A DNA stretch of 32,336 nucleotides from Deltaproteobacteria bacterium. GTDB lineage: Bacteria; Desulfobacterota; GWC2-55-46; JADFVP01. Below the pieces are notes generated by a model, which did not search any database, was not told where the DNA came from, and saw only the letters and a program-made list of their open reading frames with translations. This document shows positions 3,995 to 31,099 of the stretch, in pieces. Location of the stretch: positions 1-32,336 of the forward strand of contig JAJCZH010000015.1 in the NCBI GenBank assembly GCA_029262515.1, written 5' to 3'. Every line of letters starts with the position of its first letter. Positions within the stretch are counted from its first letter, which is position 1. The position numbers and the translations under genes are program-made.

Positions 3995-4129
3995 TTATTT
4001 AGGGAAGTCTACTCCCGATCGGACATGGTTCAGCTTAACGACTGTTCCTAATTGCTCCAGCTCTCTCTGTCGAGACTGCCTGGAGGAAATGAAGAAGTCA
4101 AACTTTTGCAGTATATCTTTCTTGTCCAT
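3995..4129 (-). CDS. 44-residue protein coupled to the Crp/Fnr gene, resembling a cNMP-domain start
   Basis: The ATG at 4127-4129 shares its A with the TGA of the upstream Crp/Fnr gene (TGATG), a classic translational-coupling arrangement. The product starts MDKKDILQKFDFFISS, continues RELEQLGTVVKLNHV and ends after 44 residues at TAA 3995-3997. The opening resembles the first helices of cyclic-nucleotide-binding-type proteins (FxxFxxLSxEELEQLA...VVKL), which suggests the truncated N-terminus of a second Crp-like protein. It could equally be a genuine small protein. No homologous sequence follows downstream, so any truncation is complete. Confidence 0.4.
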   Translation of the reverse strand: MDKKDILQKFDFFISSRQSRQRELEQLGTVVKLNHVRSGVDFPK

Positions 4130-4788
4130 CACTCTTCACCTAACGGTACAAGTATACTAATCTTCTTTCCATCTACTTCGATAATGTCGTCCTCAACGAG
4201 TTTTCTCAGAAGCCTTGAAAAGGTCTCGGGTGAGATTCCGAGAAGCAAAGAAAGCTCCCCTTTCGGTACGGGTAACGTTATCGTCTCACCGTTGCTCTTT
4301 TCATTCAGATGTTCTAGATAATTCAAAAAACGCTTCCTTACATCAGCCAGCGTCAGGTCCTCCACCATCTTTATAAGGTACTGTGTTTTTGCAGTAAGCT
4401 TGGCTATAAGTTTCATAGCCACCTCCGGGTGCCCTTGTATGCAGTCAAAGAGTTTCTTTGCATCAATTGCGAGTAAAACGGACGGTTCTATTGCCATGGC
4501 GGTTACAGGGTAACGGTTATTCAAAAAGAGTATCAACTCTGCAAAAAAATCACCCGGTTCAATAAAGCGGATAATGGCCTCTTTGCCTTCCTCATTAGAC
4601 CTAAAGAGCTTAATACTACCTGAACTTAAATAGTAGAGGTATCGGCCTTCGTCGCCTTCAAGAAAGAGCATCTCGCGCTTGTTGATACTTACCATATGGC
4701 TGATATCACTTATCAAACTCACTATCTCGGTATCTGCATCACCACAAAAATGTCTGGAAAATGATTCAACGACTATTTTTTTCTTCAT
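4129..4788 (-). CDS. Crp/Fnr-family transcription regulator
   Basis: 219 residues, the usual size. The N-terminal effector fold spans about residues 12-130, with FLEGDEGRYLYYLSSGSIKL and IRFIEPGDFFAELILF as the beta-roll strands. A long dimer helix follows, then a winged HTH at about 172-205 (GELSLLLGISPETFSRLLRK). The E-S/T-x-x-R recognition helix (PETFSRLLRKL) is the Fnr/Crp type that binds TTGAC/TTGAT half-sites. There is no N-terminal four-cysteine cluster, so it is not a classical oxygen-sensing Fnr; Dnr/NnrR-like NO sensing is possible but unproven. A matching palindrome lies three bases before its ATG. It is divergent from a cytochrome c' operon and overlaps a small downstream ORF. Confidence 0.9.
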   Translation of the reverse strand: MKKKIVVESFSRHFCGDADTEIVSLISDISHMVSINKREMLFLEGDEGRYLYYLSSGSIKLFRSNEEGKEAIIRFIEPGDFFAELILFLNNRYPVTAMAIEPSVLLAIDAKKLFDCIQGHPEVAMKLIAKLTAKTQYLIKMVEDLTLADVRKRFLNYLEHLNEKSNGETITLPVPKGELSLLLGISPETFSRLLRKLVEDDIIEVDGKKISILVPLGEE

Positions 4789-12177: not shown

Positions 12178-12213
12178 CGAAAGCCCACTTCAAACTCAAG
12201 ACTTCTTCCTGTA
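12178..12213 (-). repeat. Degenerate repeat, copy 2
   Basis: Second copy of the segment at 10820-10855. On the minus strand a frame runs STGRSLEFEVGFRQEG and stays open to a TGA near 12093. A weaker third copy, with CACAGGAAGATCTTTAG on the minus strand, lies at about 13339-13372. Confidence 0.4.
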
Positions 12214-12246
12214 CTCCGCACTTTGCAAGTACGCTTCCACACGCAA

Positions 12247-12262
12247 TATTTCTACCGGAAAT
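12247..12262. repeat. 16-bp exact direct repeat, copy 1
   Basis: TATTTCTACCGGAAAT occurs here and identically at 13201-13216. The two copies bracket the PEP-CTERM gene and its promoter. The sequence is nearly palindromic (ATTTC...GAAAT), so it may be a protein-binding site or the end of a small element. Confidence 0.45.
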
Positions 12263-12271
12263 AAACAAGAG

Positions 12272-12322: not shown

Positions 12323-12898
12323 CTAAGCCTTAAACTTTCTTCTCACAAACCCCAACCCTACAAGGCCACTGCCTAGAAGTACTAGAATTCCAAGTTCGGG
12401 TACCTGTGCTGGAGGGTCCACAAATATAAAGTTATCGATTGTAAATCCATATCCGTGGTCGTGAATAATGGCATAAGAGATCATCTGTGTCCCAGTGGAA
12501 AGACCGAAGAAGCCGTTCAGGGTAGTCGCATTAACAAGCTCGATAAGGTTATCCGAGGCGTCATAGGCTTCTAAGGTTAATAAGGTCTGACCGAAAAAGT
12601 CCACACCGATCATATTAACATTTACGCTGAATGTAGCCCGTATCGCACTGTCGACACTCAGCACCTGATCCGGAGCCAAGAAGCTAATGGCGCCGCCGGA
12701 AAAAGTGACCCCTGAAGTTGCGTATTGCGTATCAACAGCACCAAGTCCCAAGCCATCAAAGTTTATATGCTTTGTGAGTGGACCAGTTGGTATGTCACTC
12801 GATGTAAGAATAGGTACCGCCTCTACCCTCGGCACTAAAATGAATAGTACAAGAAGCGCTGATAACGCTGGCAAGTAGATAAGATGCTTAAAATTCAT
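12323..12898 (-). CDS. PEP-CTERM sorting-signal protein, exported
   Basis: 191 residues. The N-terminal signal peptide (about residues 1-27) ends VPRVEA. The mature domain is a beta-rich, Gly/Thr/Asn-rich sequence (INFDGLGLGAVDTQYATSGV, DFFGQTLLTLEAYDASDN) like many PEP-CTERM proteins with a jelly-roll-like fold. The C-terminus has the full tripartite signal: VPELG (variant of VPEP), a hydrophobic segment ILVLLGSGLVGLGF, and a basic end RRKFKA. The family is handled by a membrane exosortase and associated with exopolysaccharide and floc or biofilm formation; the exosortase gene is not in this window. AGGAG precedes the ATG, and a consensus sigma-54 promoter lies 85 bases upstream. No cysteine or catalytic motif is seen, so it is probably structural. 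Confidence 0.9.
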   Translation of the reverse strand: MNFKHLIYLPALSALLVLFILVPRVEAVPILTSSDIPTGPLTKHINFDGLGLGAVDTQYATSGVTFSGGAISFLAPDQVLSVDSAIRATFSVNVNMIGVDFFGQTLLTLEAYDASDNLIELVNATTLNGFFGLSTGTQMISYAIIHDHGYGFTIDNFIFVDPPAQVPELGILVLLGSGLVGLGFVRRKFKA

Positions 12899-12982
12899 TA
12901 ATATTGGCTCCTAATATCTTTATTGTATATTTTAGTTTAGATCTAGGAAAAAGATATAATGTTGTAATATTACAATAAATAG

Positions 12983-12998
12983 TGCAATTCTTGTGCCA
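12983..12998 (-). promoter_or_regulatory. Sigma-54 promoter of the PEP-CTERM gene
   Basis: On the minus strand TGGCACAAGAATTGCA matches TGGCAC-N5-TTGCA exactly, with GG and GC at the required 10-base spacing. Transcription would start near 12972, giving a leader of about 73 bases. Established knowledge: PEP-CTERM genes in several bacteria need RpoN with the PrsK/PrsR two-component pair. Confidence 0.85.
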
Positions 12999-13070
12999 TT
13001 AATGCTGTCTGGCATAACATACTAATTTATATTCACAAAATATCAACGATAATTTGCAAAAGCTGGAATA

Positions 13071-13091
13071 AGTGTAAAAAGATTTTACACT
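13071..13091. promoter_or_regulatory. Likely enhancer palindrome for the sigma-54 activator
   Basis: AGTGTAAAA (13071-13079) and TTTTACACT (13083-13091) form perfect nine-base arms around AGA. The centre lies about 85 bases upstream of the sigma-54 site, the usual range for an enhancer-binding activator. A second, imperfect match starts AGTGTAAAA at 13161, 90 bases further away. PrsR is the natural candidate, by inference. Confidence 0.6.
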
Positions 13092-13194: not shown

Positions 13195-13452
13195 TTACTT
13201 TATTTCTACCGGAAATCGACAATTCAGAGTCTCCCTTAGATCTGAAGACTTGTAGATGTAGTCCGCATATCTCATGCAAAGAAAAGTCCCTATGCGATTA
13301 CGACCTTGTGACTGTATAGTATAAGTATAGCCTCGGTAACACAGGGTAAAATCTACTAAAGATCTTCCTGTGAGATTCAAATTCCGGAAAGTCTTCCAGT
13401 ATACTCTGTTTCTTACAAAGTACTCATAATAACTCATTCCTGTTGTAAGCAT
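13195..13452 (-). CDS. Unrecognised 85-codon ORF, possibly a decayed gene
   Basis: An open frame from ATG 13450-13452 to TAA 13195-13197 gives an aromatic-rich product (MSYYEYFVRNRVYWK, LNLTGRSLVDFTLCYRG). I recognise no family and see no strong ribosome-binding site. TGRSLVDFTLCYR resembles TGRSLEFEVGFR in the degenerate repeat at 12178-12213, so this may be another member of the same decayed family. Its downstream end carries the 16-bp repeat at 13201-13216. Confidence 0.25.
   Translation of the reverse strand: MLTTGMSYYEYFVRNRVYWKTFRNLNLTGRSLVDFTLCYRGYTYTIQSQGRNRIGTFLCMRYADYIYKSSDLRETLNCRFPVEIK
13201..13216. repeat. 16-bp exact direct repeat, copy 2
   Basis: TATTTCTACCGGAAAT, identical to 12247-12262. 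Confidence 0.45.
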
Positions 13453-13754: not shown

Positions 13755-14446
13755 AGTTAACCGGAAGACAGAGAAAGATACTCATCTGGGTCGTTGCTTC
13801 TTTCGCTCCATATACCATTATAGGTTTCGGTATCCTGCCGTACACTCTAAAAGCGGTATTGCTTAAAAAACTGCCAGAGGCACTCCATAGAGAGGTTTCG
13901 ATTGCGAGTATCAGGTTCAACCCCTATAACCTCAAGCTGACCATAAGGTGCCTCAGTGTTAAGAAGCGCTGTGAGCCCGTACTTAGGCAAGTACGTCGGT
14001 TATGAGATATCGAAGGGCAAGCTCATCCTCGACCTCGATAATCTCACAGAGGCCTTCTTTCAAAGGCCGAAAAGTTTTCATACATAATAAGGTGCAGCGG
14101 AGGCCGGTACCTTCTCTGGATGAAGTGGTGATTAAAGAGGACGAGTATGCGAAGTATCTATGGATAGCTTATTAAGAAGGCTCAGTTCCCCAAACCGAAG
14201 AACCCTATTGGCCTTATCAAGAAACTTGCAATCGAGGAGTTGGAAAAGCTCATGTTCACAAATCCCATCATTACCGAGGATGGTCGTTATGATCTCGCCA
14301 AGCGTCGGGCCGGGGCAGTAAAGGACTACATACTCGCTATTGATAAATTAGAGCCAGAGCGGTTCTTTATAGACCGGTCGACTAAGCTTGTTCCCGAGCA
14401 GAGGAAGGGCGTAGTGCCGAGCCGGGTTGAGTTCGCCTTTGGGTAG
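13755..14446 (+). pseudogene. DUF748 (AsmA-like envelope protein), internally deleted and frameshifted
   Basis: From about 13766 one frame gives RKILIWVVASFAPYTIIGFG, a membrane anchor, then KKLPEALHREVSIASIRFNP and YNLKLTIRCLSV. This is the start of DUF748 proteins (LgRxvxlgxvrfNPxxLxL). At 13985 another frame gives GKYVGYEISKGKLILDLD, which belongs several hundred residues further on in the family. From 14119 come SLDEVVIKEDEYAKYLW and, after one more shift, FPKPKNPIGLIKKLA and a C-terminal part ending PSRVEFAFG at the TAG 14444-14446. The family is about 900-1200 residues long, so most of the middle is gone. The open stretch 14240-14446 alone looks gene-like but is only this tail. Confidence 0.75.
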
Positions 14447-14782
14447 TCGGCGCACTGTTCATAGCCGTTGGTCGCTTTCTTTGGTAACGGCGGTAGTACC
14501 TGAACTTCGCATCTTATCTCTTTTACTTCTCCTTCTGGCGGCAAGCTGATTATAAAGCTCCGGAGCTCGAAGAGTCCAAGGTAGTAGATATCGAGTAACA
14601 GAGGGTATTGTGACTCTCTTTCGGGTTGACACCGGCAGTACAGGGTGTGACTTTTCTCACATCATTGCCGGGTTTCTGGGTGTAAAAGGACAGTAACTGG
14701 TGTTGCGTACAACCTTAAACGGAATGCTGGTCATTTATACTCTTAGAGCTAAATACCGGTAGTACTATTTGGAGAATGACAA
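14447..14782. other. Intergenic region upstream of the DUF4398/OmpA-like gene
   Basis: About 335 bases without a gene. The region contains the nested-palindrome element at 14630-14690; the rest shows no clear promoter or gene remnant. Confidence 0.45.
14630..14690 (+). promoter_or_regulatory. Nested-palindrome element, copy 1, upstream of an OmpA-family lipoprotein gene
   Basis: The sequence contains CCGGCA (14632-14637) and TGCCGG (14666-14671) enclosing TGTGA (14646-14650), a six-base spacer and TCACA (14657-14661), then GGGTGTAAAAGGA to 14690. The same arrangement, including the spacer CTTTTC, is at 31040-31099 on the minus strand. The inner part equals the E. coli Crp consensus TGTGA-N6-TCACA. 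As RNA it could also form a long hairpin with an asymmetric internal loop. It ends 93 bases before the next start codon. Confidence 0.75.
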
Positions 14783-16306
14783 TTGAAAAAACAAATAATT
14801 TTTCGAGTGATTTTAAAACAGAAGATCATAATTGCTCTTTTTACGGTTTTATTAATGGCGGGATGCGCTGCACAGACACAAAAGTTAAAACCGTCGGCTG
14901 CAATGGAAAAATACCCATCGGTTAATGAATTGAATGTACAGTTACTCAAAGCGCAAATAACGAGCATACGTTACCTTGCGCCGGAAGGTTATCAGGATGC
15001 GCACAGGATATATAAGAGTGCATTGGACAAAGCGATAGCGCAAGACGCAGAGGCAGAAATACTTGCGCAAGATGGTTTGAAACGGTTGCGTATTGCAATA
15101 AAGCAGGCTGCTACCAGTGAAACGCTTATGCATGAAGCGCTGGCTGCAAGAGAGAAGGCACGCAAGGCTGCGGCGCAAACAGTCTATCCTAAGGAATATT
15201 CAGAGCTCGAATCAATATTAATAAAGGCAACCATGGCAATTGAGCATGGAAAAATTGAAAAGGCTAAAGAGTTGCGTGCTGAGTTAATCGGAGAGTATGC
15301 GGCATTGGAGCTCGACTCGCTGCAGGTCAATACTACACGAAAAGCAAAAGAGACGATTTCGAAAGCCGAAGAACAAGAGGCTGACAAGCATGCCGCCAAG
15401 ACACTGAAGCTGGCCAAAGAAGAGCTTGCACTTGCCCTTAATGTATTGAGTGCGGGACGCACTCAAACGAAAAAAGCCCAGGCTCACGCCGATAAGGCGG
15501 TCTACTTTGCAAACAAAAGTATCTATATCACAGAGACGATTAAAAACTTTGAACGCCGTGATTTCAGTAGTGAAGAGCGTGTGCTTTGGTACCAGAAGCA
15601 GTTGGAGTTGATTAACAAGCCTTTTGCTAAGAGGCTCAACCTGGATCAACCCAATCGTCATGTTGTCATGGGAATGCAGGCGGAGATAAATAAAGTGATC
15701 AAGGCAAAGGGCGCAACTAAAGATGCCTCTACTGCCACAACCAGGGATGTTTTGGCACTACAAAAGCGTATAGAAACACTTAAAGCGGAACATGAGTTGG
15801 AGATTGCGAGCCTGAGTAAGAAAATATTTCAGTCAGAAGCTTCGATGAAAAGGCAGTTAGTAAACTTGGAAGAGGCAAACCGGAAGGCACAAGCACGCTT
15901 TGACAAGATTCAGTCGATATTTACGGAAGAAGAGGCTTATGTTTATCGGCAAGGCAATAATGTGCTGCTCGAAACACATGCTTTTGATTTTAAGGTTGGC
16001 GCAAACGAAATAGATTCGAGCAACTTTGACCTGCTTGAAAGAATCATGAAAGCTATAAATGTTTTTGATAATCCCAAAATCATTGTTATAGGGCATACCG
16101 ACTCAACCGGCAGCGCAGAACTTAATATGAAACTCTCACAAAAGCGTGCACAGACAGTAGCCCTGTTTCTGAAAAAAATAGGCAAAATCGATTCAAGAGA
16201 TCTTGATGTAATAGGGTATGGTGAAACGCGCCCGGTAGCATCGAATGAGACAAAAGAGGGCCGCAAGAGAAATCGCCGTATTGAAGTTTCTATTGTCAAT
16301 AATTAA
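14783..16306 (+). CDS. OmpA-family lipoprotein with DUF4398-like helical domain
   Basis: 507 residues from TTG 14783, chosen because GGAG lies eight bases upstream and a signal peptide with lipobox (LLMAGC, Cys at about residue 28) follows. Residues 45-280 are a Lys/Ala/Glu-rich helical region resembling DUF4398 (YQDAHRIYKSALDKAIAQDA, AHADKAVYFANKSIYITETI). About 310-380 form a coiled coil. The last 115 residues are an OmpA C-terminal domain that binds peptidoglycan: GHTDSTGSAELNMKLSQKRA, with the conserved Asp and the Arg in the later R(K)RNRRIEV stretch. It probably ties the outer membrane to the cell wall. It stands alone, with the nested-palindrome element upstream and a terminator behind. 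Confidence 0.88.
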   Translation: MKKQIIFRVILKQKIIIALFTVLLMAGCAAQTQKLKPSAAMEKYPSVNELNVQLLKAQITSIRYLAPEGYQDAHRIYKSALDKAIAQDAEAEILAQDGLKRLRIAIKQAATSETLMHEALAAREKARKAAAQTVYPKEYSELESILIKATMAIEHGKIEKAKELRAELIGEYAALELDSLQVNTTRKAKETISKAEEQEADKHAAKTLKLAKEELALALNVLSAGRTQTKKAQAHADKAVYFANKSIYITETIKNFERRDFSSEERVLWYQKQLELINKPFAKRLNLDQPNRHVVMGMQAEINKVIKAKGATKDASTATTRDVLALQKRIETLKAEHELEIASLSKKIFQSEASMKRQLVNLEEANRKAQARFDKIQSIFTEEEAYVYRQGNNVLLETHAFDFKVGANEIDSSNFDLLERIMKAINVFDNPKIIVIGHTDSTGSAELNMKLSQKRAQTVALFLKKIGKIDSRDLDVIGYGETRPVASNETKEGRKRNRRIEVSIVNN

Positions 16307-30092: not shown

Positions 30093-30965
30093 TTACTTCT
30101 TAAGCTCCTTGAGCACGCGGTCTATATCGATTGGAAGCAGCACGATCTCTATTCTTCTGTTCTGCGCCCTTCCTTCAAACGTAGAGTTGTCAGCGACCGG
30201 CCTGTTGTCCGCATAACCGGTTGCAGATAAAAGTTCTGGGCTTATGCCTACCGTATCTCTTAAGTATCGTACAACCGTGGTTGCGCGTGCGGTTGAGAGT
30301 TCCCAGTTGGTAGGAAACTTTTTCTTTATCCTTGAGCCGATAGGGATGTTATCGGTATGCCCCTCAACCCTTACTTGCCGGTCGACTACGCCCTTTAGAA
30401 TATCGCCAACCCTCTTCAAGACATCGAGCCCGGCCGGTTTGATCTTGTCCTTTCCGGAGTCGAAGAGTATCTTCTCGACAAAGTTTACCGAGAGCTTATC
30501 TACGGCTTGGGTAATCTTTACGTCACCCTGCTCTATTTCCTGGCGCATCTCATGAACAAGGTTGTCATAAGTCTGCCGTACGCTGGCAAGTTCTTGCTCC
30601 TTTGCAGCGCTCAATTCACCGGACTTTAATTTGAGCCGCTCGACTTCGCGCTCGAGGTAGCCTTGCTGCTGTCTCAGGGCCTCTATCTCCGTGTCCATAA
30701 CGGCTTCGGATACCGTGAGCTTCTCATTCGCCTGCACCTTCGACTCAAGCTCTACCGATAGCAGGGATTTTTCGGTCTTCAGTGCCTCAAGTTCGGTATT
30801 GAGCGCTGTCAAACTCTCTTTGGCCTCGATTAATTCATTTGAGGTCTTTTCGAGTTGAGTCTGTTTGGTGTCCGATTCGCCAAGAGCCGTCTCGTACTTC
30901 TTGGTGCTGACGCAGCCGGCAATTAAGATCGTTACCACAACATAAAAGAGTACGTACTTTTTCAT
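30093..30965 (-). CDS. OmpA/MotB-domain lipoprotein with coiled coil
   Basis: 290 residues from ATG 30965, chosen because AGGAG lies eight bases upstream and the signal peptide with lipobox (VTILIAGC, Cys at about 18) follows; a longer frame to 31022 exists. A coiled coil at about 30-140 (ELIEAKESLTALNTELEALK) leads to a C-terminal OmpA domain: FDSGKDKIKPAG, VEGHTDNIPIG, NWELSTARATTVVRYL, ENRRIEIV-type end (AQNRRIEIVLL). It probably anchors the outer membrane to peptidoglycan. The domain version (GHTDNIPI, FPTNWELSTARA) is nearer to MotB/YiaD than to the OmpA domain of the lipoprotein at 14783-16306. Both genes share the same upstream element. Confidence 0.9.
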   Translation of the reverse strand: MKKYVLFYVVVTILIAGCVSTKKYETALGESDTKQTQLEKTSNELIEAKESLTALNTELEALKTEKSLLSVELESKVQANEKLTVSEAVMDTEIEALRQQQGYLEREVERLKLKSGELSAAKEQELASVRQTYDNLVHEMRQEIEQGDVKITQAVDKLSVNFVEKILFDSGKDKIKPAGLDVLKRVGDILKGVVDRQVRVEGHTDNIPIGSRIKKKFPTNWELSTARATTVVRYLRDTVGISPELLSATGYADNRPVADNSTFEGRAQNRRIEIVLLPIDIDRVLKELKK

Positions 30966-31039
30966 GATAATACTCCTGATATTTTCGCCTTCGGCTCTAA
31001 CAATAGAGAGTGGCTGGTTCATTTGAAATTCGAGAGTCT

Positions 31040-31099
31040 TCCTTTTACACCCTGTGCTCCGGCAATGATGTGAGAAAAGTCACACCCTTGTGCTGCCGG
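31040..31099 (-). promoter_or_regulatory. Nested-palindrome element, copy 2, upstream of an OmpA-family lipoprotein gene
   Basis: On the minus strand the element reads CCGGCAGCACAAGGG, TGTGA, CTTTTC, TCACA, TCATTGCCGG and, after a six-base variable stretch, GGGTGTAAAAGGA. It differs from copy 1 (14630-14690) by a few substitutions and one base of length outside the variable stretch. It ends 75 bases before the start codon at 30965. Sequence beyond both ends is unrelated to copy 1, so the conservation is confined to the element. Confidence 0.75.

Follow-up and report, generated by a model that had tools for sequence, protein, structure and literature searches.

The Locus and Its Shared Element

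The window, by which we mean the whole stretch of 32,336 nucleotides that was analyzed, carries two genes whose products are lipoproteins with an OmpA domain. Gene A (14783..16306, plus strand, TTG start) encodes a protein of 507 residues with the OmpA domain at its C-terminus (Pfam OmpA, E 4.6e-19), and gene B lies on the minus strand at 30093..30965 (Pfam OmpA, E 1.7e-17). The longest open reading frame for gene B begins upstream, at 31022; however, we consider ATG 30965 to be the most likely start, because the orthologue in a sister species of the same genus (genome G002) begins at the equivalent ATG.

Each gene is preceded by a copy of the same element, copy A at 14632..14690 (plus strand) and copy B at 31040..31099 (minus strand). 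By whole-genome blast the copies are 88% identical (E 6.6e-15) and are oriented alike relative to their own genes, with no third copy found in the whole 2.5 Mb genome. An initial sequence-only reading had described a near-identical core, outer arms CCGGCA/TGCCGG and a second conserved block, GGGTGTAAAAGGA, and all of these are present in both copies. The outer arms are visible in the sequence at 14632-14637 (CCGGCA) and 14666-14671 (TGCCGG) on the plus strand in copy A, and at 31059-31064 (TGCCGG) and 31094-31099 (CCGGCA) on the minus strand in copy B. The 18-mer GGTGTGACTTTTCTCACA, which forms the core of the element, occurs twice with 0 mismatches, compared with 0.02 occurrences expected in shuffles. 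The second block (14678-14690, plus strand, in copy A) ends 92–93 bases before the start codon of gene A (TTG 14783) and 74–75 bases before that of gene B (ATG 30965), which agrees with the 93 and 75 bases reported initially. Directly upstream of copy A is a decayed DUF748 gene (13770-14446, plus strand), of which an N-terminal and a C-terminal piece can be recognized (Pfam E 5.9e-15 and 2.8e-8); it carries frameshifts and has lost its middle part.

The Sister-Species Copy and the Probable History of the Element

When 97 genomes of the phylum were searched, by blast and by pattern, the strict element was confined to this genome and to G002. In the contigs of GTDB 220 the sole genuine match was likewise the G002 contig JADFVP010000090.1 ("Proteobacteria bacterium isolate C1.bin.21"); three further contig matches were dismissed as chance, being without GTGACTTT upstream. 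In G002 the gene that follows the element is orthologous to gene B (73% identical at the protein level), and no such element was found upstream of the gene B orthologues in genomes G009, G017, and G018. The search of genome and relatives that had been proposed at the outset returned two copies here and one in G002, all before OmpA-domain genes. GTGACTTTnCnCACATCATTGCyGG and GGGTGTAAAAGGA are conserved throughout A, B, and the G002 copy, and the outer arm of copy A is kept in the sister species in part only.

The flanks of the two copies had been described as unrelated. This is correct for the upstream flanks of A and B compared with one another (z -0.5; downstream there is slight likeness, z 1.9), but the upstream flank of A matches that of the sister-species copy, with 70% identity over 203 bases (14525-14724), while the upstream flank of B has no homology to it. 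The G002 leader downstream of the element aligns with both A (z 5.7) and B (z 3.2). The simplest history for these three sequences would be that a single promoter region was duplicated, giving rise to the two copies, with a breakpoint immediately 5′ of copy B. An intergenic repeat beginning TATTTCTACCGGAAAT is present at 12187-12268 and 13201-13222, around a PEP-CTERM gene; the sister contig has two similar stretches, of which one lies immediately before the copy of the element there.

The flanks of A and of the sister copy show that the region was duplicated or rearranged, as might also be expected of a mobile intergenic repeat, REP-like or otherwise, that plays no part in regulation. Such a repeat is expected in many scattered copies, often between convergent genes, and these were looked for and not found: there are two copies in 2.5 Mb, both upstream of genes, and none in the other relatives searched, in viral contigs or in phages, while all three known copies have the same orientation before OmpA-domain genes. 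On copy number, a mobile nature is highly improbable.

A Candidate CRP-Type Site and Its Motif Across the Order

At the center of each copy is a candidate activator site of the CRP type, TGTGACTTTTCTCACA, located at 14646..14661 (plus strand, center 14653.5) in copy A and 31069..31084 (minus strand, center 31076.5) in copy B. Both half-sites are those of the Escherichia coli CRP consensus, and A and B each match TGTGA-N6-TCACA exactly. The exact matches that this genome has at other places extend to a common longer form, TGTGAC-N4-GTCACA, to which the TGTGAC-TTTT-CTCACA of A and B conforms at 11 of 12 bases. The G002 copy matches at 9 of 12; two of its three departures are in the classical half-sites, and the spacer CTTT is kept.

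It is the extended motif that is enriched. Allowing at most one mismatch, TGTGAC-N4-GTCACA was found at 12 sites in this genome compared with 1 for the reversed control (four of the 12 being one repeat near contig ends), whereas TGTGA-N6-TCACA with one mismatch had no excess (35 vs. 32). In the 29 genomes of the order, 99 sites compared with 40 controls were identified at the same threshold, as a sum over the per-genome table to which the contig-end repeats contribute a few; some of the genomes, such as G004, G010, and G019, have none. That repeat, TGTGACAAGTGTGACA, lies ~90–110 bases from the contig ends (C16:91, C20:93, C30:39785, and C36:36686 in this genome; C32, C86, and C119 in G011) and is a repeat that breaks assemblies in two genomes; on C16 of this genome it is followed by tRNAs.

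In G002 as in this genome, one motif site precedes an alginate-export-type porin gene. The half-sites of this site are identical in the two genomes while the N4 and the 30–40 bases around the site differ, making this a phylogenetic footprint of a CRP-type site within the genus, before another outer-membrane gene.

Spacing Between the Site and a Candidate −10 Hexamer

The second conserved block contains a proposed −10 hexamer, TAAAAG, at 14683..14688 (plus strand) in copy A and 31042..31047 (minus strand) in copy B. Its offset from the site center is 29 in A, 29 in B, and 30 in the G002 copy; the porin promoter of this genome carries TATCCT at 29 and that of G002 TATCAT at 30; and TAAAAG at exactly 29 was also found in G016, G022, and G027 before a related protein (ACT-like domain). 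The spacing was noticed at a handful of loci and then tested on the listed sites of the order (72 sites, of which 27 lie inside long open reading frames and 45 do not, the split between intergenic and coding being approximate as reading frames were called by a simple length rule). For the order's intergenic sites the mean −10 score, calculated from approximate E. coli base frequencies, peaks at offset 29 with z 4.7, and with z 4.2 after removal of the loci that had suggested the idea. Among the matches listed, a −10-like hexamer (TA plus at least 4 of 6 matches) at offset 29 or 30 is present in 22 of the 45 site-orientations toward a gene that were left after removing framing loci and near-duplicates, compared with 2.2 expected, with the proviso that orientations of sites within one divergent intergenic region are not independent. 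Sites inside open reading frames, again among the matches listed, have no such peak (2 of 60 vs. 1.1 expected).

An offset of 29 from center to hexamer puts the site center at approximately −41.5 and thus at the class II position, class II CRP sites being centered at −41.5 (PMC2859248). In cyanobacterial CRP promoters the −10 box follows the site by ~22 bases (PMC2633013). TAAAAG itself is a weak hexamer (4 of 6, score 2.9) without the final T of TATAAT, and there are higher-scoring hexamers further downstream, such as TATACT at offset 82 in A.

These downstream hexamers form part of a different account, in which the CRP-type site acts together with an equally essential second protein, bound to the outer palindrome or to ATCATTGC and GGGTGTRA half-sites, at a downstream promoter. 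What speaks for a composite operator of this kind is conservation beyond the CRP site: ATCATTGC, the outer arms and part of the spacer are more conserved or symmetrical than such a site needs. In one variant, a leader promoter such as TATACT/TATTGT would turn the CRP site into a class I site lying well upstream; TATACT in A and a TATTGT-like hexamer in B would place the site center at ~ −95 and ~ −84, respectively, one helical turn apart. We have kept the class I arrangement only as a part of the composite operator. The downstream hexamers, however, are at varying places in the three copies while TAAAAG is constant, and the order-wide peak is at offset 29–30 only, so that we regard a composite operator as unlikely.

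A Predicted Class II Promoter

The 60-base element is most probably a duplicated class II CRP-type promoter, and one member of a wider set of such promoters that this uncultivated order possesses. A dimer of a CRP-family protein would bind TGTGAC-N4-(G/C)TCACA, overlapping the place of a −35 element and centered at ~ −41.5, and RNA polymerase would use the weak TAAAAG within GGGTGTAAAAGGA, 21 bases past the site, with transcription predicted to begin near 14695 for gene A and near 31035 for gene B. Sequence statistics show the motif, its enrichment, the fixed distance that separates it from the −10 throughout the order, and its placement before genes. The suggestion that the two genes share a regulator recognizing a Crp-like core is thereby supported and can be sharpened to a class II promoter, with GGGTGTAAAAGGA as the −10 region at the spacing found across the order. 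A CRP site does not account for the conserved ATCATTGC or for the outer arms CCGGCA/TGCCGG.

The proposed arrangement shares with the class II CRP promoters of E. coli a palindromic site of the TGTGA-N6-TCACA type that replaces the −35 element, with its center at ~ −41.5, followed by a −10 (PMC2859248). It differs from them in the preference for TGTGAC-N4-GTCACA, the weak TAAAAG, and the additional outer palindrome, and in that the activator, its ligand, and the starts are predictions (PMC2859248). The SyCRP1 promoters of cyanobacteria also have TGTGA-N6-TCACA and then a −10 box, ~22 bases away there and 21 here (PMC2633013); however, they belong to another phylum, their box is TAN3T rather than TAAAAG, and the targets here are envelope and secreted proteins (PMC2633013).

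The conservation of spacer and arms had also suggested an RNA hairpin in the 5′ leader, which would be transcribed from an upstream promoter and would control translation or stability. The stem would be CCGGCA...GGTGTGA-CTTTTC-TCACATC...TGCCGG, with a CUUUU loop that could perhaps pair with AAAAG in the second block. Copies A and B do fold (−21.5 kcal/mol, z -2.3, and −20.4 kcal/mol, z -1.8, respectively), and in the sister copy one outer pair has become A-U in place of G-C, through changes at both positions, and another has become U-G. The fold is nevertheless not preserved in the sister species, where it is no better than in shuffles (z 0.64) and the probability of the outer pairs is at most 0.21, and over the three sequences three pairs are broken vs. 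one compensated, a result that 173 of 500 shuffles equal. Neither an upstream promoter common to A and B nor an Rfam match was found. On the class II reading the hairpin would not be transcribed from this promoter, and we consider a leader hairpin, weakly supported at best, to be quite unlikely.

Comparison with the PEP-CTERM Enhancer

The PEP-CTERM gene of the window (12323-13090, minus strand) has a textbook control region consisting of a palindromic enhancer, GTGTAAAAAGATTTTACAC, at 13072-13090 and a sigma-54 promoter, TGGCACAAGAATTGCA, at 12983-12998 (minus strand), ~74 bases from the enhancer. A second such enhancer is located before another PEP-CTERM gene (C2:110211), and the full palindrome GTGTAAA-N5-TTTACAC occurs in this genome at C15:13072 and C2:110211 only. 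The PEP-CTERM box with its sigma-54 promoter and the PrsK/PrsR system were described by Haft et al. 2006 (PMC1569441).

Because the OmpA element has the half-site GTGTAAAA in common with the enhancer at 13072-13090, the initial reading had hinted at common control, in which case GTGTAAAA would serve PrsR as an enhancer for a sigma-54 promoter of the OmpA genes. The resemblance is real, in that the PEP-CTERM box contains a GTGTAAA half-site (PMC1569441) and, within this window, stands close to an envelope gene, but the likeness spans only half of the palindrome at 13072-13090: both PEP-CTERM sites are full palindromes, while the OmpA elements have GTGTAAAA only and are without the second half TTTACA and the −24/−12 promoter of that box (PMC1569441). 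Moreover, TGGCACAAGAATTGCA lies downstream of the window's PEP-CTERM site, in agreement with Haft et al. 2006 (PMC1569441), whereas a search of the stretch leading from the element to the start codon found no GG-N10-GC promoter in copy A, copy B, or the sister copy. Since the PEP-CTERM enhancers are of the form GTGTAAA-N5-TTTACAC with sigma-54 promoters, and the OmpA elements have neither, the proposed link fails and control of the OmpA genes in common with the PEP-CTERM genes is very improbable.

The Candidate Activator

Four proteins with an HTH_Crp_2 domain were identified in this genome, and the one encoded on contig C23 is alone among them in having the residues R, E, and R at recognition-helix positions 1, 2, and 6 (SSREVVSR); it also carries a cyclic-nucleotide-binding domain. 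An R-E-R triad in the recognition helix has been taken as predicting binding to TGTGA-N6-TCACA (PMC5701242). We infer that the C23 protein binds the elements of the OmpA genes; it would be the activator proposed above, activating rather than repressing, and may be controlled by cAMP or another signal. The HcpR1 of Desulfovibrio is a CRP-family protein that likewise combines an R-E-R helix with a TGTGA-N6-TCACA site, although HcpR regulates nitrosative-stress genes, none of which were found adjoining the sites here (PMC5701242).

The window also contains a CRP-family gene (4129-4788), which was considered as the source of the regulator. Its helix, SPETFSR, is without the first Arg, making it a less likely candidate than the C23 protein, and is closer to the helices of FNR-type proteins.

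Predicted Targets and Their Significance

Genes that lie downstream of a site with a −10-like hexamer at offset 29 or 30 encode, among others, a TPR-type protein (seven genomes: G005, G008, G012, G014, G016, G022, and G027), the porin, pilin-like proteins with an N-methylation motif, an ABC transporter, an iron-sulphur/FAD oxidoreductase, and fibronectin-type secreted proteins. Many of the predicted targets listed are envelope or secreted proteins. The small TPR-type protein (L223, L197, L229, L240, L244, L251, and L253) is the most widely kept target of the motif. In two sister species a CRP-type site precedes mreB, with TACCAT/TACTAT as the hexamer at offset 30 (L259 in G002, contig C238; L260 in G001, contig C7), and no site with at most one mismatch was seen upstream of mreB in this genome.

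What had been an odd 60-base repeat becomes, on the reading we prefer, a promoter for which an activator, a −10 hexamer, and start sites can be predicted, and the fixed-spacing motif (TGTGAC-N4-GTCACA, 21 bases, TAnnnn) predicts a regulon in a bacterial group without genetics. Somewhat against the odds, a single CRP-type activator might run a conserved class II regulon for envelope and shape across this uncultivated order. If so, its members would be the OmpA lipoproteins and the porin within the genus, mreB in two sister species, and, outside the family, pilin-like and TPR proteins together with fibronectin-type secreted proteins, a role that would be unlike the one in carbon metabolism best known from E. 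coli.
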